Assembly: GCF_913773735.1 (NCBI RefSeq)
Contig: NZ_CAJYEB010000002.1
Coordinates: 1-64,000, forward strand
Length of the DNA: 64,000 bases
Direction of reading: 5' to 3'
Source: an uncultured Massilia sp.
GTDB taxonomy: Bacteria > Pseudomonadota > Gammaproteobacteria > Burkholderiales > Burkholderiaceae_D
Of the stretch, positions 484-40,797 are shown in pieces. The notes under the pieces are model-generated. The model had not been told where the DNA came from, searched no databases, and saw nothing but the letters and a program-made list of their open reading frames with translations. The translations under genes were made by a program, and so were the position numbers. Position 1 is the stretch's first letter, and every line of letters starts with the position of its first letter.

Positions 484-1463
484 ATGTCAGACCATATCGC
501 CTTCAGCGACCTCAAATCGATCCTCCACTCCAAACGCGCAAATATCTACTACCTGGAGCACTGCCGATTACTGGTCAACGGCGGCCGCGTCGAATACATC
601 ACGGATGAAGGAAAGCGCTCGCTGTACTGGAATATCCCGATCGCCAATACCACGACCGTCCTGCTGGGAACTGGCACGTCGGTCACCCAGGCCGCCATGC
701 GTGAATTGGCCAAGGCCGGCGTACTGGTCGGATTTTGTGGCGGTGGCGGCACGCCGCTGTTCAGCGCCAACGAAATCGATATCGAAGTGGCCTGGTTTTC
801 GCCGCAAAGCGAATATCGTCCAACCGAATACCTGCAGCATTGGGTTCGCTTCTGGTTCGACGACGAATTGCGCCTTGCCGCGGCAAAGTCCCTGCAATTG
901 GCCCGCTTGGGCTACATTCGTACGCACTGGACCGGACAACGCTCATTGAAAGAACAGGGTTTCGATATCAATGCCAGCATACTGGACGAGGTGCTGGCCA
1001 CCGCACGCAAATCGATCGAAAACTCCCCGGACCTGGCCTTCCTGCTCACCCATGAAGCCCGGCTGACCAAGCAGCTCTACAAGATGGCCGCCGGCGCTGT
1101 CGATTACGGCGACTTCGTGCGCTCGAAGCGAGGCAGCGGCAAGATCCCGCCAATCGCCTGCTCGACCACGGCAACTATCTGGCATACGGACTCGGCGCAA
1201 CGGCGACCTGGGTGCTGGGACTGCCGCATGGTCTGGCAATCCTGCACGGGAAGACCCGGCGCGGTGGCTTGGTATTCGATGCGGCGGATCTGGTCAAGGA
1301 CGCGGTCATCCTCCCGCAAGCCTTCGTGTGTGCCATGCGGGGCGAGAGCGAGCAGGAGTTCCGCAATGCCTGCGTCGACAGCCTGACCCGGGCCGAAGCA
1401 CTCGATTTCATGATCGATACACTCAAGGACATCGCCACCAGCACCGCAAGGATGGTCTCATGA
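484..1463 (+). pseudogene. cas1: Cas1 integrase of type I-F CRISPR-Cas, interrupted by a one-base frameshift
   Basis: Cas1 is the integrase that, with Cas2-3, inserts new spacers at the leader end of the array. The first 220 codons read as Cas1f and include the metal-ligand Glu191 in LLTHEARLTKQLYK. At about 1138-1144 the frame slips: after GSGK the family sequence continues one frame back as DPANRLLDHGNYLAYGL. It then runs through LPHGLAILHGKTRRGGLVFD, with the remaining ligands His255, Asp266 and Asp269, to the TGA at 1461-1463. Restoring one A in ggcaagatccc would give a normal 326-residue protein. As written, translation stops at 1386 after 300 residues and loses those ligands. The cause is either a real inactivating deletion or a sequencing error. 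No good ribosome binding site precedes the ATG. The end overlaps the cas2-3 start (ATGA). Confidence 0.85.
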
Positions 1464-4400
1464 ACGTCCTGTTCGTTTCCCAGTGTACCAAGCGGGCGCT
1501 GATAGAAACCCGCCGGATCCTCGACCAGTTCGCCGAACGGCGCGGCGATCGCACATGGCAGACGCCGATCACCCAGGCGGGACTCGATACGCTACGTCGC
1601 CTTCTCAAGAAGAGCGCGCGGCGCAATACAGCCGTCGCCTGCCACTGGATATGGGGACGCGACCATAGCGAACTGCTGTGGGTGGTCGGCGATGCCGCGC
1701 AATTCAACAACCGCGGCGCCGTCCCGACGAATGTCACTACCCGAAACATCCTACGCAGCGCCGACGAGAACGAGTGGCATACCGGCCAGGACATCCAACT
1801 GCTGACCGGCATGGCGGCCCTGCTGCACGATCTCGGCAAGGCAAGCGTCGCCTTCCAACGGCGCTTGCGCGGAGAGCTCGAGGAAAAAAACCAGTACCGG
1901 CACGAATGGGTGTCGTTACGCCTGTTCGAGGCCTTTGTCGGAACGGACGACGACGAACGCTGGCTAGCGCGCCTGGCAGCGCCAACGTCCGACGACGACT
2001 CCAGTTGGCTGGCACCCGACAGACTGCAGCGGGACGGGCGCGATCCGAATGTCTCACGTACTTTCGCCAAACTGTCGCATGCGCCGCTGGCACAAGCGAT
2101 CGGCTGGCTGGTGGTAACCCACCACCGCTTGCCGACGCTTCCTCACGATCGCGACGGCACGCAAGGATTTTCGGTCCATTTGCTCAATAACGTCCTGGAG
2201 CATATCGATGCCGGCTGGAACGAAGGAACCGCTGAGCGCAACGCCACTACCCTCCCCCTGTACTGGGAATTCGAACACGGCCTGCCGGTGACGACCGACG
2301 CATGGCGCAAGCGTGCTGCGCGCCTGGCAAGACGCCTGTCGACGTTGCGCGCGCAAGCCGGCAAGGGGAACTGGCTGTCCAATCCCTACGTCATGCACGT
2401 GTCGCGCCTGAGCCTCATGCTGGCCGACCACCATTACTCCAGCCTGAGCGGCAACAACCCGGGACGCGTCAAGGGGGCAGAGGGCTATCCCTTGTATGCA
2501 AACACGCTCGGCAGCCCCAGGGACTTCAACCAGGCGCTGGACGAGCACCTGCTCGGCGTCGCCAGCCATGGCGCCGAAGTAACGCGCGCCCTGCCACGCT
2601 TCAACGAGCACCTGCCTCGACTGGCACGACACAAGGGACTACGCAAGCGCGCCCAAGACGAACGCTTCCGCTGGCAGGACAAGGCCGCGGATATGGCGGC
2701 CGCCATGCGCGAACGGGCCGGCATGCACGGCGCCTTCGTCGTCAACATGGCGTCCACCGGCTGCGGCAAGACCCTGGGGAACGCCCGCATCATGTACGGC
2801 CTGGCCGATCCGGAACGCGGTATGCGCTGTGCGTTCGCGATGGGCCTGCGTACGCTGACCCTGCAAACCGGGCGTGCCTTCCGCGACCTGCTGGGGCTAC
2901 GTGACGACGAGCTGGCTATCAAGGTCGGCGGCACGGCCACGCGCGAACTCTTCGAACATTACGAGGCCGAGGCCGAAAAGACCGGATCGGCGTCGCGCCA
3001 GGATCTGATCGACGAAACCACGCACGTTCTGTTCGAAGGCAACCACGATTCCGATCCCCTGCTCCGCAGGATCATGCACGATCCGCAGGTACGTTCTCTG
3101 CTGGCGGCACCAGTGCTGGTATCCACCATCGATCACTTGATGCCCGCCACCGAGAGCGAACGCGGCGGCCGCCAGATCGCACCGATGCTCAGGCTCATGA
3201 GCAGCGACCTGGTGCTGGACGAACCCGACGACTTCGATATCGGCGACCTGCCCGCGCTGACGCGGCTCGTGCACTGGGCCGGCATGCTGGGCGCACGCGT
3301 ACTGTTGTCATCGGCCACCTTGCCGCCAGCCCTTGTACAGGGCCTGTTCGAAGCCTACCGCGACGGTCGACGTCATTTCCACCGCAACCGCGGTGTGCGG
3401 CCGGATGCCGCTCACCCGCAGCCGGAAATCTGCTGCGCATGGGTCGACGAATTCCGGCAGTCGCAGGCCGACTGCACGGATGCCAAGACCTTCAGCGACG
3501 CCCATGACGCCTTCGTCGCGCAGCGACATGCGCGGCTGGCCGAAAGTCCGGTACGCCGGCGCGCAGCCCTGCTGCCGCTTCCCCTTGCCGGCATACGGCG
3601 CGAGCGGCACGCCGAAGAATTCGCCCGCCACGTGTTGGACGCCGCCATGCGCCTGCATGCACAGCACCACAGTATCGATCCGCATGGCAGCAAGCGCGTC
3701 AGCTTCGGCCTGGTGCGCATGGCGAACATCCAGCCGCTCGTCGATGTGGCACTGGCCCTTTACCGGCAGGGCGCGCCGGACGGCGTACGCATCCACCTGT
3801 GCACGTACCACTCGCAATATCCTCTGCTACTCCGTTCCGACATCGAACGGCGTCTGGACCAGGCACTCAATCGGCGCTGGCCGGACCGCAGCCAGCTCGA
3901 ACCCGTATTTTCCCTCCCCGATATTCGCCAACGCCTCGACCGCTTCACGGAATCGGATCACGTCTTCATCGTACTCGGCTCGCCCGTCACGGAAGTCGGG
4001 CGCGACCACGACTACGACTGGGCCGTGGTGGAGCCGTCGTCCATGCGCTCGCTGATCCAGCTGGCGGGCCGGGTGCGCCGCCATCGGGGCGAAGAATGCA
4101 CGTCGCCCAATATCCTGGTATTCGATACGAACCTACGCCACTTCCGCGAAGAAATCGCCTTCTGCAAACCGGGTTTCGAGAGCACGACATTCCCCCTGTC
4201 CACGCACTCGCTGGCGCAGCTGCTGTCGGAGTCAGAACGCAATGTCATCGATGCACGTCCGCGGATCGTCAGCCGGCCAGCCCATCAATTGGAGCCGACG
4301 ACCCGACTGGTCGACCTGGAGCATGTGCGCATCCGGCAAACGATGTCGGCCGATAGCGGCAAACCGGCACCTGCTTCTACCGGACTACGAAAGCGCGGAT

Positions 4401-4849
4401 CTATCCTGGCCGGAAAGCCGATCGACAATGCAGCCACGTGGTGGAGCCTGCCGCCCGCCGATGCCTTGCTCACTGCTGTCCTGCAACGGCGCCAGCCGTT
4501 CCGCAAGGACGGCGCGCCGCAAGTCGACCTGTTCCTGCGCCCGCTCGAAGACGGTTCCGACTACGAACTCGTCGAGATTGCAGAGAAAAGACGCCGGACA
4601 CGTACCGGCGAGGTGATCGTCGAAGTGGATACATCGATGAACCATCGCATCGACGACGCGATGGTTCTGGGTGATGGAATCGCTCCGTGGGGGCAAGTCG
4701 ACTACATGCAAGCACTGCATCAGTTGGCGCAAGAACTTGACATGACTATCGCGGATTGTGCTCGCCGCTATAGCACCGTGACCCTGCCAAGGCGCGATCA
4801 AGGCTGGCGCTTCCATGTGGCGCTGGGGTTTTCGGCATACATGCCATAG
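1460..4849 (+). CDS. cas3: Cas2-3 fusion nuclease-helicase of type I-F
   Basis: This 1129-residue protein fuses an N-terminal Cas2 domain (about residues 1-95, MNVLFVSQCTKRALIETRR) to Cas3, an arrangement specific to type I-F. Visible motifs are the HD nuclease pair His123-Asp124 in LLHDLGKAS, Walker A in STGCGKT with Lys437, the DEPD box at 587-590, SAT at 618-620, and the motif VI arginines in QLAGRVRRHRG from 867. Cas2 assists spacer integration; Cas3 unwinds and degrades DNA marked by the Csy complex. I chose the ATG at 1460 because it overlaps the cas1 stop as ATGA and matches the family N-terminus; an in-frame ATG at 1328 would lie inside cas1. The gene looks intact, unlike cas1. Confidence 0.95.
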   Translation: MNVLFVSQCTKRALIETRRILDQFAERRGDRTWQTPITQAGLDTLRRLLKKSARRNTAVACHWIWGRDHSELLWVVGDAAQFNNRGAVPTNVTTRNILRSADENEWHTGQDIQLLTGMAALLHDLGKASVAFQRRLRGELEEKNQYRHEWVSLRLFEAFVGTDDDERWLARLAAPTSDDDSSWLAPDRLQRDGRDPNVSRTFAKLSHAPLAQAIGWLVVTHHRLPTLPHDRDGTQGFSVHLLNNVLEHIDAGWNEGTAERNATTLPLYWEFEHGLPVTTDAWRKRAARLARRLSTLRAQAGKGNWLSNPYVMHVSRLSLMLADHHYSSLSGNNPGRVKGAEGYPLYANTLGSPRDFNQALDEHLLGVASHGAEVTRALPRFNEHLPRLARHKGLRKRAQDERFRWQDKAADMAAAMRERAGMHGAFVVNMASTGCGKTLGNARIMYGLADPERGMRCAFAMGLRTLTLQTGRAFRDLLGLRDDELAIKVGGTATRELFEHYEAEAEKTGSASRQDLIDETTHVLFEGNHDSDPLLRRIMHDPQVRSLLAAPVLVSTIDHLMPATESERGGRQIAPMLRLMSSDLVLDEPDDFDIGDLPALTRLVHWAGMLGARVLLSSATLPPALVQGLFEAYRDGRRHFHRNRGVRPDAAHPQPEICCAWVDEFRQSQADCTDAKTFSDAHDAFVAQRHARLAESPVRRRAALLPLPLAGIRRERHAEEFARHVLDAAMRLHAQHHSIDPHGSKRVSFGLVRMANIQPLVDVALALYRQGAPDGVRIHLCTYHSQYPLLLRSDIERRLDQALNRRWPDRSQLEPVFSLPDIRQRLDRFTESDHVFIVLGSPVTEVGRDHDYDWAVVEPSSMRSLIQLAGRVRRHRGEECTSPNILVFDTNLRHFREEIAFCKPGFESTTFPLSTHSLAQLLSESERNVIDARPRIVSRPAHQLEPTTRLVDLEHVRIRQTMSADSGKPAPASTGLRKRGSILAGKPIDNAATWWSLPPADALLTAVLQRRQPFRKDGAPQVDLFLRPLEDGSDYELVEIAEKRRRTRTGEVIVEVDTSMNHRIDDAMVLGDGIAPWGQVDYMQALHQLAQELDMTIADCARRYSTVTLPRRDQGWRFHVALGFSAYMP

Positions 4850-4852
4850 AGC

Positions 4853-4926
4853 ACAACGAGCTGCCTGTTCGGCAGTAGAGAGACAGCACTTCCATAGTTT
4901 GCTGAGCTGCATGCGCTGCAGTGGAT
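4853..4926 (-). ncRNA. Putative cas-regulating crRNA-like RNA (CreR type): two diverged repeats around an 18-nt pseudo-spacer
   Basis: Read on the minus strand. Psi-repeat 1 (4926-4899) has stem CTGCA/TGCAG and loop GCGCA, followed by handle CTCAGCAA; the array repeat has CTGCC/GGCAG, loop GTGTA and handle CTCAGAAA. The changed base pair is compensatory and both loop changes are transitions. Psi-repeat 2 (4880-4853) keeps the stem CTGCC/GGCAG followed by CTC, with loop GAACA. Between them lies an 18-nt guide, ACTATGGAAGTGCTGTCT (4898-4881), shorter than the normal 32. Cas6f cutting after each stem would leave a 46-nt RNA in place of the usual 60. A TATAAT box lies directly upstream. Such mini-CRISPRs are known to guide type I effectors to cas promoters; that this one does so is inferred from its match to 4967-4985. 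Confidence 0.75.
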
Positions 4927-4929
4927 CTG

Positions 4930-4935
4930 ATTATA
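4930..4935 (-). promoter_or_regulatory. Perfect -10 box (TATAAT) for the CreR-like RNA
   Basis: On the minus strand the hexamer is TATAAT. Transcription would start about seven bases on, near 4923, which is just where psi-repeat 1 begins, so the RNA would have almost no extra leader. The -35 region (around 4953-4960, TTATGT or TATGTG) matches the consensus poorly. Confidence 0.5.
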
Positions 4936-4966
4936 ACGAAATGAAAAATACTCACATAATAGCTAG

Positions 4967-4987
4967 GTGACAGGATTTCTATAGTGG
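4967..4987 (-). promoter_or_regulatory. PAM-flanked target of the CreR-like guide in the csy promoter region
   Basis: The minus strand reads CC (4987-4986, the canonical type I-F PAM) and then ACTATAGAAATCCTGTCA (4985-4968). Compared with the guide ACTATGGAAGTGCTGTCT it differs only at positions 6, 10, 12 and 18. Positions 6, 12 and 18 are the nucleotides that Csy-type complexes flip out of the heteroduplex, and the position 10 change leaves a G-T wobble. The site lies 37-57 bases upstream of the csy1 ATG and covers the plus-strand hexamers TATAGT (4980-4985) and GTGACA (4967-4972), candidate promoter elements, so bound complex would block transcription of csy1-csy2-csy3-cas6f. Confidence 0.7.
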
Positions 4988-5023
4988 CAGATCATTTCTC
5001 CGCACCTAAGCAAGGAGGACGAA

Positions 5024-6328
5024 ATGATAGTGACCGATCCACAACGCGTTACCGAACTTCGAAGTCTGATCCATACCTTCCTGGCAAAGCGCTTGGAAGA
5101 TAAACTCGACAAGCTGGCTATCGACGATCCCAAGCGTATTGAGCTAGCGCAGCAGTTTGTACCGGCCACATGGCTCGATGACGCGGCCCGGCGCGTAGAG
5201 CAAATCCAGGCCGTCACTCACTCCATCAAACCCATCCATCCGGATGCCAAGGGATCGAGCCTGTACAGTGCCCCATCCAGCCAATCGATCCTGGATGTCG
5301 TCGGTAGTCATTGCCTCGGCGACGATTTCGAGATCGACGTCGTGGGAAATGCAGCGGCACTCAATGTCTACAAATTTCTCAAGCTGGAGCACGACGGCAG
5401 TACCTTGCTCGACCTGTCGCTGCGGGGCGATGCCCATTTCAAGATGGCCCTGCACGACGACCCCGAGCAGGCGCAGGAATGGCTTGAGGCCTTTGCCGGA
5501 CTGGCAAAGCCGCGCGATCGCATGCATTCGCACACATTGGCAAAACAGCTATTCTGGCCGGTCGGCGACGATCCGCACGACGACCATGGGTTCGACTTGC
5601 TAGTGCCATTGCACGCAAGCTCGTTGGCGCACCGCATTCACCTGCAAATCCAGGATGACCGTTTCGGGGAAGCCGCAACGGCGGCGAGGGAGGCGCGCAA
5701 GAAGAATGAATTCAGCGATCGCTACGTACGCGAGTATCCGAATCTGGCAATCAGGAAGGTAGGAGGGACGAAGCCCCACAATATAAGCCAGCTCAACAGT
5801 GACCGACGCGGCGAAAACCTGTTGCTGGCATCCCTTCCTCCCGTCTGGCGAACGAGCGAACTCAAGCCACTATGGAATGTCGATTCGCTGTTCGTACGAT
5901 ACGGCTTCCGGACGGATGTCAAACGCATCATTACAACACTGCAGCTTTTCTTGAAAAAGAATCCTAAACCAAACGAAAAAACCCGTTTGCGCGTCGCCGC
6001 CTTGTTGAGTGAACTGATCGACATTTTCCAACAGCTTTCAGCCGAATTCAGGTCGCTTTCTCCCGGCTGGAGCCAGCTTCCGGCATGCAAGTTGCCGCCA
6101 TCGGAACAACACTGGCTCGACCCGGCAGGCGTGCAGCAAGCAAGAGCCGCCGATGGACGTCCCGTGCCGACCGATACGGCCGAGCAGATTAGCGCTGCGT
6201 TCGGGCGCTGGCTGAACGCACGGCTGCAAACTGCGCTCGACGTCGGCGACGCGGAATTCCAAGAGTGGCGCAAGCGCCTGCATGAGCATATCCAACTGGA
6301 AGACTGGGAGATCGACCATGAGCTTTGA
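5024..6328 (+). CDS. csy1: Csy1 (Cas8f), large subunit of the type I-F effector complex
   Basis: This 434-residue protein matches the Csy1/Cas8f family in length and sequence (for example LLASLPPVWRTSELKPLW near residue 268 and the conserved GGTKPHNISQLNSDRRGEN stretch). Csy1 sits with Csy2 at the foot of the Csy complex, holds the 5' handle of the crRNA and reads the CC PAM. The start is well set by AAGGAGG five bases upstream of the ATG. It begins the operon csy1-csy2-csy3-cas6f and overlaps csy2 by 11 bases. A separate promoter for this operon is likely in the 174-base gap after cas2-3, the same gap that holds the CreR-like element and its target. Confidence 0.95.
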   Translation: MIVTDPQRVTELRSLIHTFLAKRLEDKLDKLAIDDPKRIELAQQFVPATWLDDAARRVEQIQAVTHSIKPIHPDAKGSSLYSAPSSQSILDVVGSHCLGDDFEIDVVGNAAALNVYKFLKLEHDGSTLLDLSLRGDAHFKMALHDDPEQAQEWLEAFAGLAKPRDRMHSHTLAKQLFWPVGDDPHDDHGFDLLVPLHASSLAHRIHLQIQDDRFGEAATAAREARKKNEFSDRYVREYPNLAIRKVGGTKPHNISQLNSDRRGENLLLASLPPVWRTSELKPLWNVDSLFVRYGFRTDVKRIITTLQLFLKKNPKPNEKTRLRVAALLSELIDIFQQLSAEFRSLSPGWSQLPACKLPPSEQHWLDPAGVQQARAADGRPVPTDTAEQISAAFGRWLNARLQTALDVGDAEFQEWRKRLHEHIQLEDWEIDHEL

Positions 6329-7331
6329 AACGCCAACAATCCCGTCCGTGCTTGTCCTGCCGCGCCTGCGCATACAGAACGCGAACGCCATTTCGAGCCC
6401 GCTGACCTGGGGCTTCCCGGCCATCACCGCATTTACCGGCCTCATGACGGCCCTGGAGCGCAAGCTCGGACGCGATGCCAGCATCACCATGCACGGTATC
6501 GGCGTGATCTGCCACGGCATCGAACCGCAAGTCACGCGCAACGGCTACACCCGCAACTTCCACCTCACGCGCAACCCCATCCTGCCCGACGGCGAGACCG
6601 CGGCCATCGTCGAGGAAGGCCGCGCTCACCTCGACCTGACTCTGGTCATCGACGTCGATGTTGCACCATCGCTGCCCGGCACGGATGCACTTCAGCATCT
6701 GGCACAGCGGATCGGGACCATCGTGGCCGGCATGCGCATCGCTGGAGGATCCGTGGTGCCGCCCCTTCCTGGCCGGTTCCGCCGTCCGCCGACACCACAG
6801 TTGTTCGTGAAGGAAAGCGATCCGCACGAGGCAAGCCGGATACTGCGCAAGCTGACCCGCCAATGGCTTCCCGGCTTCGCGCTGGTATCTCGCGACGATT
6901 TGCTGCAACAACGGTTTGCGGACCTGCGCCTCGACGCACCCGCGGCCACCCTGCTGGATGCATTTCTCGACCTATCCAGCCTGACGCATCGCGCCGTCCT
7001 GAAAAATAGCGCAGATGAAGACGACGCGCCGACGAGCAATGCCGTGGAATGGCGCACCGATGCACGTGCAGGCTGGATCGTGCCGATGCCGGTCGGCTTC
7101 GCGCGCATCGCGCCGCTGCAAGCACCCGGCAGCGTCGCTCGTGTGCGCGATCCATCCCTGCCGGTTGCCTTCGTCGAAAGCGTGTACTCAGTGGGCCAGT
7201 GGATCAGTCCACATCGCCTCGTCGATATCGATCATCTGTTCTGGCAGCCCTATAACGACAAGGAGAACGGGCTTTACCGCTGCATCAACGGCTTCCGTGC
7301 CACGCCTACCACCGCTGTTTCCACCTACTGA
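6318..7331 (+). CDS. csy2: Csy2 (Cas5f), effector complex subunit
   Basis: The 337-residue product carries the family's signature opening [20 protein letters not shown], followed by [16 protein letters not shown]. Csy2 is the Cas5-type RAMP protein that pairs with Csy1 to cap the 5' end of the crRNA. I chose the ATG at 6318, which overlaps the csy1 stop by 11 bases, over the ATG at 6282 that would add twelve residues inside csy1; the overlap fits translational coupling and the usual N-terminus. The gene ends 17 bases before csy3. Confidence 0.93.
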
Positions 7332-7348: not shown

Positions 7349-8383
7349 ATGGCAACTGCTGCACTCAAAACCGCATCGGTACTTGCGTTCGAACGCAAAC
7401 TCGATCCGTCCGATGCCCTGTTCTTCGCCGGCTCCTGGGACCAGCGGGATACAAGCGGCAACTGGCAGGCCGTCCGCGTAAAAGAAAAATCCGTGCGCGG
7501 AACGATCTCAAACAGGCTCAAGACGAAAGACCAGGATCCGGCAAAGCTGGATGCGGCAATCGAAAACCCGAACCTGCAAACCGTCGACGTGGCGGCCCTT
7601 CCCGCCGACGCCGACACGCTCAAGGTCAGTTTCACACTGCGCGTGCTGGGCGGCGCGGGAACGCCGTCGGCCTGCAACAATGCCGATTACCAGCGCAAGC
7701 TGCTGGGCACCGTGCAAGGCTATGTCGACGCCATCGGCTTCGGTGAACTGGGCCGGCGCTATGCCTACAATTTGGCGAACGGACGATTCCTCTGGCGTAA
7801 CCGCCTGGGCGCCGAACAGATCGCCGTGCAGGTCGCGCAAATGACCAATGGCCAACCCGTGAACACCTGGGACTTCGATGCACTGTCGCTCTCCACACGC
7901 CATTTCGAGCCAACGCAGGACACCGCGACCACGCTGACCGAATTGGGCGCCGTCATCGCGGACGGATTGGCCGGCAAGCATTACGTCCTCCTGCAAGTCA
8001 CCGCCTTCGTGCGCTTGGGTGCCGGCCAGGAAGTGTTTCCGTCACAGGAACTCATTCTCGACAAGGGCAAGGCAGGAAAAAGCAAGACCCTGTATGCGGT
8101 CTCCGAGATCGCTGGTATGCACTCCCAGAAAATCGGCAATGCGGTGCGTTCGATCGATACCTGGTACCCGGATGCAGCCGACAACGGACCGATCTCGGTC
8201 GAGCCGTACGGCGCCGTGACGACGCAGGGCAAGGCCTACCGCAAGCCGGGCGAAAAGCTGGACTTCTATACCCTGCTCGACGGCTGGATCATCAAGGACA
8301 AGGTACCGGCACCCGAGCAGCAGCACTTCGTCATGGCCAACCTGATCCGCGGCGGCGTGTTCGGTGACGCGGGCAAGGACTGA
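7349..8383 (+). CDS. csy3: Csy3 (Cas7f), backbone subunit of the effector complex
   Basis: At 344 residues this is the size of Cas7f, six copies of which polymerise along the crRNA spacer and set the six-nucleotide spacing of flipped-out bases. Recognisable family segments include the N-terminal [20 protein letters not shown], the SVRGTISNR stretch, and GQEVFPSQE in the C-terminal half. An AAGGAG site lies seven bases upstream of the ATG. The gene is followed two bases later by cas6f. Confidence 0.95.
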
Positions 8384-8385
8384 CG

Positions 8386-8949
8386 ATGGATCATTATGTC
8401 GATATCGATGTGAGGCCGGATCCGGAATTTCCGTCCCACCAGCTCATGAGCGCCTTGTACTCGAAGCTGCATCGGGCGCTGGTGGCCCTGGACAGCACGA
8501 ACATTGGCGTCAGCTTTCCGGAAGCGAAGCGCCAGCCGGCCGACCTGGGCAAGCGCCTGCGACTGCATGGTGAACTGGCGGTGCTGTCGACGCTGATGGA
8601 AAGTAGCTGGCTGACCGGGATGCGGGACCACGTCACGATCACGGCACCGTCGCGGGTACCGGAAACAGCCAGGCACTGCGTCGTCAGGCGAGCCCAAGTC
8701 AAGAGCAGCCCAGAGCGCCTGCGTCGCCGCCTCATGCGGCGTCATGAGATCGATGAGCAGGAAGCGTTTGCTCGCATACCCGATCACGTTGCGCGGCGGT
8801 TGGCGCTGCCGTTCGTGCAGTGGCGCAGTGCCAGTACTGGGCAGTCATTCAAGCTGTTCATTGACCAAAGTGGGCCGCAGTTGGAGCCGGTTGTAGGGGT
8901 ATTCAATACGTTTGGCTTGGGGCGTGGGGCGACGGTACCCTTTTTCTGA
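8386..8949 (+). CDS. cas6f: Cas6f (Csy4), crRNA-processing endoribonuclease
   Basis: This 187-residue protein cuts the pre-crRNA at the base of each repeat hairpin and stays bound to the 3' hairpin of the crRNA. The catalytic histidine of Csy4 is at exactly the expected place (His29 in YSKLHRAL). The arginine-rich helix that grips the RNA stem is seen at about residues 102-120 (RRAQVKSSPERLRRRLMRRH), and the protein ends in the typical GLGRGATVPFF. It starts two bases after csy3 and is the last gene of the operon; the CRISPR leader begins at once after its stop. Its cutting would also process the CreR-like RNA, whose two hairpins keep the five-base-pair stem. Confidence 0.95.
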   Translation: MDHYVDIDVRPDPEFPSHQLMSALYSKLHRALVALDSTNIGVSFPEAKRQPADLGKRLRLHGELAVLSTLMESSWLTGMRDHVTITAPSRVPETARHCVVRRAQVKSSPERLRRRLMRRHEIDEQEAFARIPDHVARRLALPFVQWRSASTGQSFKLFIDQSGPQLEPVVGVFNTFGLGRGATVPFF

Positions 8950-9078: not shown

Positions 9079-10727
9079 GTTCACTGCCGTGTAGGCAGCT
9101 CAGAAAACGGCGAAGGCGGCACTGATGTAGGCGGTTGCGTTCACTGCCGTGTAGGCAGCTCAGAAAAGTTACCGCCAGCAAAACCAAGGACGGCCGACGT
9201 TCACTGCCGTGTAGGCAGCTCAGAAAACAATTGGACGAGACGATATTTCTTCCGCTTGGTTCACTGCGATGTAGGCAGCTCAGAAATACGAGGAAGAACT
9301 TGAGGTCACGCCCGAAGCGTTCACTGCCGTGTAGGCAGCTCAGAAATTCTGGCCACCCGTCGGTTCCTGCAGCGTGATGTTCACTGCCGTGTAGGCAGCT
9401 CAGAAAATGCGAGAGGCAAAGGTTGTCTCGCAATCGCAGTTCACTGCCGTGTAGGCAGCTCAGAAAAGACTAATTCGCCGCCAATTCGCAATCCGGAGGT
9501 TCACTGCCGTGTAGGCAGCTCAGAAATTGGCGGACTTAATGATGTCGTGCAGCGCGTCGTTCACTGCCATGTAGGCAGCTCAGAAAACCAGGTGCGATTG
9601 TCGTTATCGACGAAGCGCGTTCACTGCCGTGTAGGCAGCTCAGAAAAAGACGCGCCGGGCACCGGCAACAGCTGGCCTGTTCACTGCCGTGTAGGCAGCT
9701 CAGAAAATGGCCATCAACACCAATCCGCAGGTGACCGGGTTCACTGCCGTGTAGGCAGCTCAGAAATCAAGAATCTGTGCGAGGCGTGCTTGCTCGGCGT
9801 TCACTGCCGTGTAGGCAGCTCAGAAAAGCAAGCCAACAAGGGCGTGCGCGGCAAGATCGTTCACTGCCGTGTAGGCAGCTCAGAAAACATCGCCGCCGCA
9901 CGCAAATCGTTCACCGTCGTTCACTGCCGTGTAGGCAGCTCAGAAAATCATCTTTCGCCACCAGACGTGGCAGATCGACGTTCACTGCCGTGTAGGCAGC
10001 TCAGAAATGCAATGGCTTGCGACGAGTGATCGGCGTTTTGTTCACTGCCGTGTAGGCAGCTCAGAAAAGCAGCGCCTGGACATGCAGGTTTTCATCTACG
10101 TTCACTGCCGTGTAGGCAGCTCAGAAATCCACGCCGGCCATGAGCCGGCTTTTTTGCGCGTTCACTGCCGTGTAGGCAGCTCAGAAAAGCGCGCATCCAG
10201 TGCGCCAGCCGATGCGGATGTTCACTGCCGTGTAGGCAGCTCAGAAATGGTCGCGCTGGTGAGCTCGCCGTGGCCTGGCGTTCACTGCCGTGTAGGCAGC
10301 TCAGAAATTGAGACGGGCATAGATGACGTTCATGGCTGCGTTCACTGCCGTGTAGGCAGCTCAGAAATATCCTGTGACGCCCGAAGCAACGTCGGACGAG
10401 TTCACTGCCGTGTAGGCAGCTTAGAAAGGCTCCCAAGCATCGAAGGCCAGATTCAGCAGTGTTAACTGCCATGTAGGCAGCTCAGAAATTGCCGTGCGTG
10501 AGTGCGCGACGCAGTGCCGAGTTCACTGCCGCGTAGACAGCTCAGAAATATTTGTGGTTGGTGGGGTCTGCTAGTAATTGTTCACTGCCGCGTAGGCAGC
10601 TTAGAAAAGTCGGGATCCGGCGAATCTTATTCGGTCTACGTTCACTGCCGTGTAGGCAGCTCAGAAATAAGCCAACAGCCTGATCGTCCCGACGGCCGGG
10701 TTCACTGCAATGCAGGCGTCCGAACAC
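9079..10727 (+). CRISPR. Type I-F CRISPR array: 27 repeats of 28 bp, one decayed terminal repeat, 27 spacers
   Basis: The repeat begins GTTCACTGCCGTGTAGGCAG and ends CTCAGAAA, the standard I-F form with stem CTGCC/GGCAG. Repeats start every 60 bases from 9079; spacers are 32 bases except 33 at 9947 and 10428 and 31 at 10549. Variants: the repeat at 9259 has CTGCGATGTAGGCAG, which breaks the top pair of the stem; the one at 9559 has loop ATGTA; those at 10400 and 10580 end CTTAGAAA; 10461 begins GTTAACTGCCATG; 10521 has GCGTAGACAG. The last copy, from 10700, keeps only its first half. Drift at the right end and the AT-rich leader at 8950-9078 place the leader at the left, so transcription runs left to right and new spacers would enter at 9079. 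No two spacers look alike. Confidence 0.99.
10133..10155 (+). terminator. Intrinsic terminator carried inside spacer 18
   Basis: Spacer 18 (10128-10159) contains GCCGGC, loop CATGA, GCCGGC and then six T. In the direction of array transcription this is a textbook intrinsic terminator. It was presumably captured from the end of a phage or plasmid gene. It would lie between the first 17 and the last 9 spacers. Confidence 0.55.
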
Positions 10728-40665: not shown

Positions 40666-40797
40666 GGTGTCCTTTCGTTCGGTGAGGTGGCGCGCGACGC
40701 ATGGGCGCATCCGCGCGACCGGACCGACATTATTGCAGGAACCCGCCATGGACGTGCGGCCTCCCCCGGGCCGCCCCGGCGCCGCCGGCGAGGCGGC

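Follow-up and report, generated by a model that had tools for sequence, protein, structure and literature searches.

CreR RNAs, which regulate cas genes, were reportedly described by Liu et al. (2023, Cell Host Microbe). Shmakov et al. (2023, NAR 51:8150) are said to have described regulatory mini-arrays of type I-F1, with two repeat-like units and a spacer partly complementary to cas8 promoters, and to have tested one I-F1 system. Autorepression by CreR is in print for types I-B, I-E and V-A, as given in the available parts of PMC13131331 and PMC12737573. In type I-F, the accessible sections on the CreTA module of Acinetobacter (Wang et al. 2023, PMC10097628) report a 20-nt guide with mismatches at positions 6, 11 and 18, and an antitoxin RNA, CreA, that is processed with an 8-nt 5' handle and a 20-nt 3' handle. 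CreA works through Csy, with no need of Cas1 or Cas3, and keeps down a toxin RNA that contains a mini-ORF of 33 bp. The same sections give CC as the PAM of type I-F. In type I complexes the base at each sixth position flips out of the duplex and the seed comprises positions 1-5, 7 and 8 (excerpts of PMC7305327), and in type I-B 24-bp spacers repress without interference (excerpts of PMC10989794). Racr are solitary repeats borne by phages (available text of PMC10651486). Haloarchaeal CreT is tRNA-sequestering according to the portion at hand of PMC8501985, in whose main text the term 'I-F' is absent, and nothing on cas autoregulation in type I-F appears in the available sections of PMC11656645.

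The window, the 64,000-nucleotide stretch of DNA analysed here, contains a type I-F1 locus composed of cas1f, cas3f, csy1, csy2, csy3, cas6f and a CRISPR array. The cas1f gene (484-1463) is split across two frames that cover profile positions 1-207 and 233-306. On the plus strand follow cas2-3 (cas3f; 1460..4849, one open frame, TIGR02562), csy1 (cas8f; 5024..6328, TIGR02564), csy2 (6318..7331, TIGR02565), csy3 (cas7f; 7349..8383, TIGR02566) and cas6f (csy4; 8386..8949, TIGR02563), and the main array, also on the plus strand, occupies 9079..10727 with 28 repeats (counted at 17/28 or better), of which 21 are exact copies of GTTCACTGCCGTGTAGGCAGCTCAGAAA. Just upstream of cas1, positions 1-66 of the minus strand resemble what we take to be the start of an IS3-type transposase OrfA. 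By profile search the effector set for binding is complete, with csy1-3 and cas6f plus cas3f. Adaptation has likely been lost through the frameshift in cas1f, with the effector genes still read through, and the same lesion may reflect decay of parts of the locus. Of 392 genomes in the family 10 had a csy1 match, as had 21 of 399 in the order, the window's own genome being counted each time; within the genus csy1 was present in 1 of 62 genomes, that of the window only, which suggests that the I-F locus was acquired by transfer. The gap between cas3f and csy1 is 174 nt long. A scan found no T-run terminator between these genes, and csy1 could in any case be fed by read-through from cas3.

This gap holds, on the minus strand, a unit of two degenerate I-F repeats around a short guide, within the cas locus and separate from the main array, as is the case for CreR. 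PsiR1 (ATCCACTGCAGCGCATGCAGCTCAGCAA; 4926-4899) has the stem CTGCA/TGCAG with loop GCGCA; the guide, PsiS (ACTATGGAAGTGCTGTCT; 4898-4881), is 18 nt long; and PsiR2 (CTCTACTGCCGAACAGGCAGCTCGTTGT; 4880-4853) keeps the intact stem CTGCC/GGCAG. The initial annotation had described two repeat-derived minus-strand hairpins 46 bases apart, with these stems and an 18-nt guide in place of the usual 32, and all of this is borne out, the starts of PsiR1 and PsiR2 being separated by 46 nt. The C-G to A-T swap that it saw, which retains pairing, is real and lies in the PsiR1 stem. It had also called the loop changes transitions; this is true of both PsiR1 changes relative to the array repeat, whereas the PsiR2 loop carries a transversion as well. 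The unit does not qualify as a canonical array, as the two PsiRs are unlike each other and unlike the array repeat, and the guide has 18 nt against 32 nt in the array spacers. PsiR2 starts 3 nt past the stop codon of cas3, its hairpin can be read on the plus strand too, and its handle has lost its resemblance to the array repeat. The last 8 nt of PsiR1 form the predicted 5' handle, CTCAGCAA. With the published register of I-F CreA processing (accessible sections of PMC10097628), the predicted mature CreR RNA would span 46 nt at 4906-4861 (8 of handle, 18 of guide and 20 of 3' hairpin), which agrees with the register proposed earlier.

An Rfam search of 4700-5100 at E <=1 returned CRISPR-DR4 as the sole family, and it matched both hairpins, in both cases under the gathering score (PsiR1: E 0.16, model positions 1-28 of 28; PsiR2: E 0.073, model positions 6-22). 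These matches argue that the two hairpins are more than chance, and so do the existence of a target for the guide and the reappearance of this layout in related loci. Fold energy was tried as support for the element and set aside, being weak for PsiR1: it was unusual for PsiR2 (z -2.82) and not unusual for PsiR1 (z -0.11) or for the 66-nt two-hairpin RNA (z -0.63). In the minimum-energy fold of that 66-nt RNA (4861-4926) PsiR1 is disrupted or mispaired; the centroid retains both hairpins.

The guide has a protospacer-like target, ACTATAGAAATCCTGTCA, on the minus strand at 4985-4968, flanked by the I-F PAM, CC, at 4986..4987 of that strand and lying 38 nt ahead of the csy1 start. Guide and target are identical at 14 of 18 positions, and three of the four mismatches (6, 10, 12 and 18) fall on the flipped-out positions of type I complexes. 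When both strands of the window were scanned, this was the best match of the guide apart from the guide itself. With positions 6, 12 and 18 omitted the target scored 14/15 with CC and the runner-up 11/15 without CC; the margin is smaller when all 18 positions are counted, at 14 for the target and 13 for a CC-flanked runner-up at 40745-40762. None of 2000 shuffled guides equalled the real guide in the gap (p 0.0005, the floor of the test). In the 5.88-Mb assembly the pattern CCACTATNGAAGTNCTGTC, searched with up to 3 mismatches, was found at five places, namely the target (1 mismatch), the guide itself (2) and three others (3 each), and the backwards pattern was found at none. Three independent registers, the predicted handle length, the PAM and the flipped positions, concur in this reading of the bases.

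The target lies among predicted signals for csy1. The best promoter candidate, GTGACA-17-GATCAT (4967..4995, 9/12), and the second, ATAATA (4956-4961)/TATAGT (4980-4985) with spacing 18 (8/12), both overlap it, and the third, ATAACG (4933-4938)/CATAAT (4955-4960), also 8/12, ends 8 nt upstream of it; if this third candidate is the true one, the target would cover the first transcribed bases of the csy1 RNA. All three are on the plus strand and are consensus matches only, with 0.3 sites as good as 9/12 expected by chance in the stretch. The csy1 Shine-Dalgarno sequence, AAGGAGG, is at 5012..5018. As described for CreR, the PAM-flanked partial match thus sits at a cas promoter, albeit a predicted one. 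The mini-array had been credited with a perfect TATAAT at the right spot for its RNA. This hexamer is indeed present on the minus strand (4935-4930) as a predicted creR -10, and an RNA from it would begin at about 4923, at the base of the first hairpin; its -35 is poor, reaching at best 3/6 when read by eye, and the promoter scan does not report a creR promoter.

Related loci were collected from a search with the window's Csy3 (best 80 of 137 relatives) and from additions by a csy1 search. The collection came to 109 loci; 100 of them could be used, and 97 went into the test once three near-duplicates had been removed. Loci were dropped because they had no csy1 match (L010, L032, L050), were duplicates (L033, L034, L037, L040), had a csy1 start too near or past the locus end (L080, L108) or were near-duplicates (L059, L104, L110). 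A first scan that required five stem pairs found a repeat pair in 29 of 59 loci, with a CC-flanked target at 11/15 or better in 28 of the 29, but was circular for stem covariation and was therefore replaced by a stem-blind search, in which the 18 nt after a handle-like octamer had to match, at 13/15 or better, a site in the same gap with CC beside it. Such a match was found in 39 of 63 loci with gaps of at least 100 nt, the window included, in this set containing the best 80 of 137 Csy3 relatives. The remaining 24 long-gap loci had no match at this main threshold, nor had any of 30 short-gap loci or of 4 loci with an unknown cas3 end. With CC replaced in turn by each of the other 15 dinucleotides, between 0 and 3 of the 63 loci matched. 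The reversed handle gave none, and so did two shuffled handles; a third, CCTAGAAA, still gave 34 of 57 because it is nearly identical to the real handle. One chance match, in L075 (plus strand, stem unpaired), arose in the handle-control scan.

The targets are clear of the mini-array in 36 of the 39 loci. They overlap it by 8 nt in L109 and by 4 nt in L072, where a second site is clear, and by 17 nt of its own PsiR1 in L058, a doubtful match that failed the earlier stem-requiring scan and was counted only since the stem-blind search permits targets inside the mini-array. The sole good CC-flanked match of the 18-nt L058 guide is this one within its own PsiR1, as in a self-regulating array or an internal duplication. 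When a second repeat was also required, a relaxed search added 7 loci among 28 misses, against 0 or 1 of 28 for eight control dinucleotides, and in the relaxed matches with 12-15-nt guides the complementarity stops about at the guide end. The window is compact within the 39 and not extreme, as three loci have targets closer to csy1, one has a shorter guide and one a smaller gap. Among other arrangements, the minus strand of the cas3-csy1 gap of L070 holds five units resembling repeats, spaced 60 nt apart, which look like a small ordinary array inside the operon, and L082 has the sole mini-array of the 39 that shares the strand of csy1.

A hairpin stands ahead of the handle in all 39 loci although none was demanded, with five pairs in 38 and four in L109. 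Across the first-repeat stems 194 of 195 cells are paired, whereas 2000 shuffles gave 173 on average and never more than 181; the arms were those of the best loop length between 3 and 6, which introduces a slight bias. The stem departs from CTGCC/GGCAG in 23 loci, and in 19 of these, including the window, both partners of a stem pair have changed. The compensatory swap in PsiR1 had been put forward as a sign of selection on RNA structure, with covariation across related I-F loci proposed as the check. A single swap proves little, but the stems co-vary across the 39 loci and the change is therefore part of a general pattern.

Mismatches between guide and target follow a similarly regular course in the 39 loci, with none at positions 1-5, 32 at position 6, 34 at 12, 32 at 18 and 41 jointly at the ten others. 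After removal of the three overlapping loci the profile is unchanged (29, 31 and 29 at positions 6, 12 and 18) and near and far targets divide 18/18. Selection against pairing at the sixth positions was considered and found unsupported, as 19 of 117 cells match where shuffling gives 21.5 on average (P 0.28); these positions look unconstrained rather than avoided. Read on the guide-like strand, the targets themselves have A in 79 of the 117 cells at 6/12/18, whereas the other five registers have it in 22-40 of 117; leaving out the overlapping loci gives 74 of 108 and 20-36. The guides are G+C rich at 6/12/18 (75 of 117). Of the 7 loci from the relaxed search, 6 have A at position 6 and 3 have it at position 12. 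Under drift alone, A should be no more favoured than T at the sixth positions.

The sequence between target and csy1 divides the loci further. Where the target is far from csy1 (218-360 nt), a Shine-Dalgarno-led mini-ORF of 9-14 codons is present in 18 of 19 loci (L022, L036, L046, L047, L049, L052, L061, L062, L064, L072, L074, L075, L078, L081, L083, L086, L090 and L092), against 2 of 19 in the reversed control. None was found in the 20 loci with near targets (13-169 nt), the window included. The cut at 200 nt was set after the distances were seen, and the split is weaker in the 7 relaxed matches, with a mini-ORF in three of five far loci (L016, L020 and L103; not L097 or L101) and in neither of two near loci. 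The mini-ORFs mostly start with GTG and carry two rare codons in tandem towards their end; in the 18 far loci this pair is AGA AGA in 9, TTA TTA in 4, TCA TCA in 1 and mixed in 4 (AGA AGG, AGG AGA, AGA TTA and ATA AGA). In the csy1 genes of the 19 far loci these codons are the least used of their sets, AGA making up 0.4% of Arg, TTA 2.4% of Leu and TCA 4.9% of Ser codons. L049 has two successive mini-ORFs with AGA AGA in each. Mini-ORFs also occur in the gaps of L016, L020 and L110, with AGA AGA in L016 and L110 and TTA TTA in L020; L103 and L100 have no tandem pair. These mini-ORFs are like the tRNA-sequestering haloarchaeal CreT in design (portion of PMC8501985 at hand) and unlike the Acinetobacter I-F CreT, and they are likely a bacterial family of tRNA-sequestering CreT directed at several tRNAs. 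In the window, the 38 nt from target to csy1 contain the Shine-Dalgarno sequence of csy1 itself, no start codon and no Shine-Dalgarno-led mini-ORF, and thus leave no room for a toxin gene.

Two degenerate repeats, an 18-nt guide, a PAM, a partial match 38 nt before csy1, recurrence in relatives and covarying stems are present in the DNA. We consider it highly probable that the minus-strand two-repeat mini-CRISPR at 4853-4926 (creR) encodes a 46-nt RNA that guides the Csy complex to the CC-flanked 14/18 site at 4968-4985, likely repressing the predicted csy1 promoter. A crRNA-like RNA regulating cas genes was also what the initial annotation favoured; that reading remains the best one, and the decisive evidence for it, the CC-flanked target, had been missed. 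The RNA would be transcribed from the TATAAT at 4935-4930 and presumably cleaved by Cas6f after each hairpin, and could then assemble with Csy1-3. The resulting complex would bind over or just past the csy1 promoter without cutting the DNA, as the guide is probably too short for a full R-loop. Feedback could follow, in that free Csy complex would load CreR and shut down csy1-4, and plentiful array crRNAs or phage anti-CRISPRs would draw the complex away and allow csy1-4 to be expressed.

The least improbable of the alternatives, to which we give a small chance, is that the RNA is the antitoxin of a CreTA module, repressing a toxin RNA encoded in the gap and so making the cell dependent on Csy. 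The Acinetobacter I-F CreTA occupies the same gap with the same layout (accessible sections of PMC10097628), the window likewise has a mini-array and a CC-flanked partial target in the cas3-csy1 gap, and mini-ORFs accompany nearly all far targets. The toxin RNA expected between target and csy1 is absent from the window, none of the 20 near-target loci has the mini-ORF, and with neither mini-ORF nor start codon there, and no toxin gene under the target, the element is best read as an autorepressor of the CreR type, as judged by its layout, rather than as a toxin-antitoxin. The solitary-repeat elements known as Racr, single repeats on a virus or plasmid, do not fit two repeats within a cas operon.

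A smaller chance still is assigned to a dead remnant, in which a repeat pair was left stray when an array was rearranged and now drifts without function. The degeneracy of both repeats, the frameshift in cas1 and a PsiR2 handle that has grown unlike the array repeat would suit such a remnant; yet degenerate PsiRs are the published norm for CreTA (available part of PMC9458426), and a remnant would not account for compensated stems, for the same logic in 38 other loci, or for a PAM-flanked match that is unique in the assembly at its score and has its mismatches at flipped-out positions. Those mismatch positions, together with guide and PAM, would equally be left without reason if the hairpins were structures of the DNA or mRNA, such as a terminator or processing sites in the cas3 or csy1 transcript, with the guide match secondary. 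The proximity of PsiR2 to the cas3 stop codon and its legibility on the plus strand lend this reading something, but it lacks the T-run of a terminator and we hold it to be more improbable than the remnant. The most improbable is an ordinary immune spacer against a phage or plasmid, whose match near csy1 would be due to descent or chance: the repeat-spacer-repeat form is as expected, but the guide has 18 nt and not 32, its best genomic match is in cis, and an exact search for CCACTATNGAAGTNCTGTC matched no viral contig of IMG/VR, a single collection limited to viruses and searched with no mismatches allowed.

If the autorepressor reading is true, the strain adjusts its CRISPR effector with an RNA of its own that has no more than 18 guide bases. 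Site, guide and register are known precisely enough that point mutations could test this directly. The survey also suggests a simple sequence rule, in which the distance from target to csy1 and the presence or absence of a mini-ORF separate autorepressors from toxin-antitoxins in the I-F gap. Beyond this we offer, as a tentative proposal that seems to us possible rather than probable, that the cas3-csy1 mini-array is one element with two states, either a CreTA holding down a toxin made of a tandem-rare-codon mini-ORF or a toxin-less CreR gripping csy1, of which the window would be the compact form. An addiction module may have become an autorepressor, or the reverse, and the targets of both states would carry a second code at positions 6, 12 and 18, where the guide-like strand has A and the paired strand T.

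The class of element, that of self-regulating RNAs, is already known, and the mini-array in the window is a new predicted example of it. By the reported features of the I-F1 mini-arrays of Shmakov et al. (2023), the one in the window is of the same kind. With CreR of types I-B, I-E and V-A it shares a crRNA-like RNA encoded in the cas locus, a partial match to a cas promoter and autorepression, the last predicted here; it differs from them, as they are presented in the available text, in belonging to type I-F, in its 18-nt guide against 32 in the array and in a site at the predicted csy1 promoter. Like Racr it is a repeat mimic that, by analogy, would bind Cas6f, and unlike Racr it has two repeats, a place in the host cas locus and a guide with a target in cis (available text of PMC10651486). 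The Acinetobacter I-F CreTA, as set out in the accessible sections of PMC10097628, has in common with the window the cas3-csy1 gap, a mini-array divergent from the target transcript, the order PsiR1-PsiS-PsiR2 and the CC PAM. The two differ in that the window is without creT and has its site 38 nt from csy1, and the Acinetobacter site is downstream of the creT promoter, whereas that of the window overlaps the two best promoter candidates.
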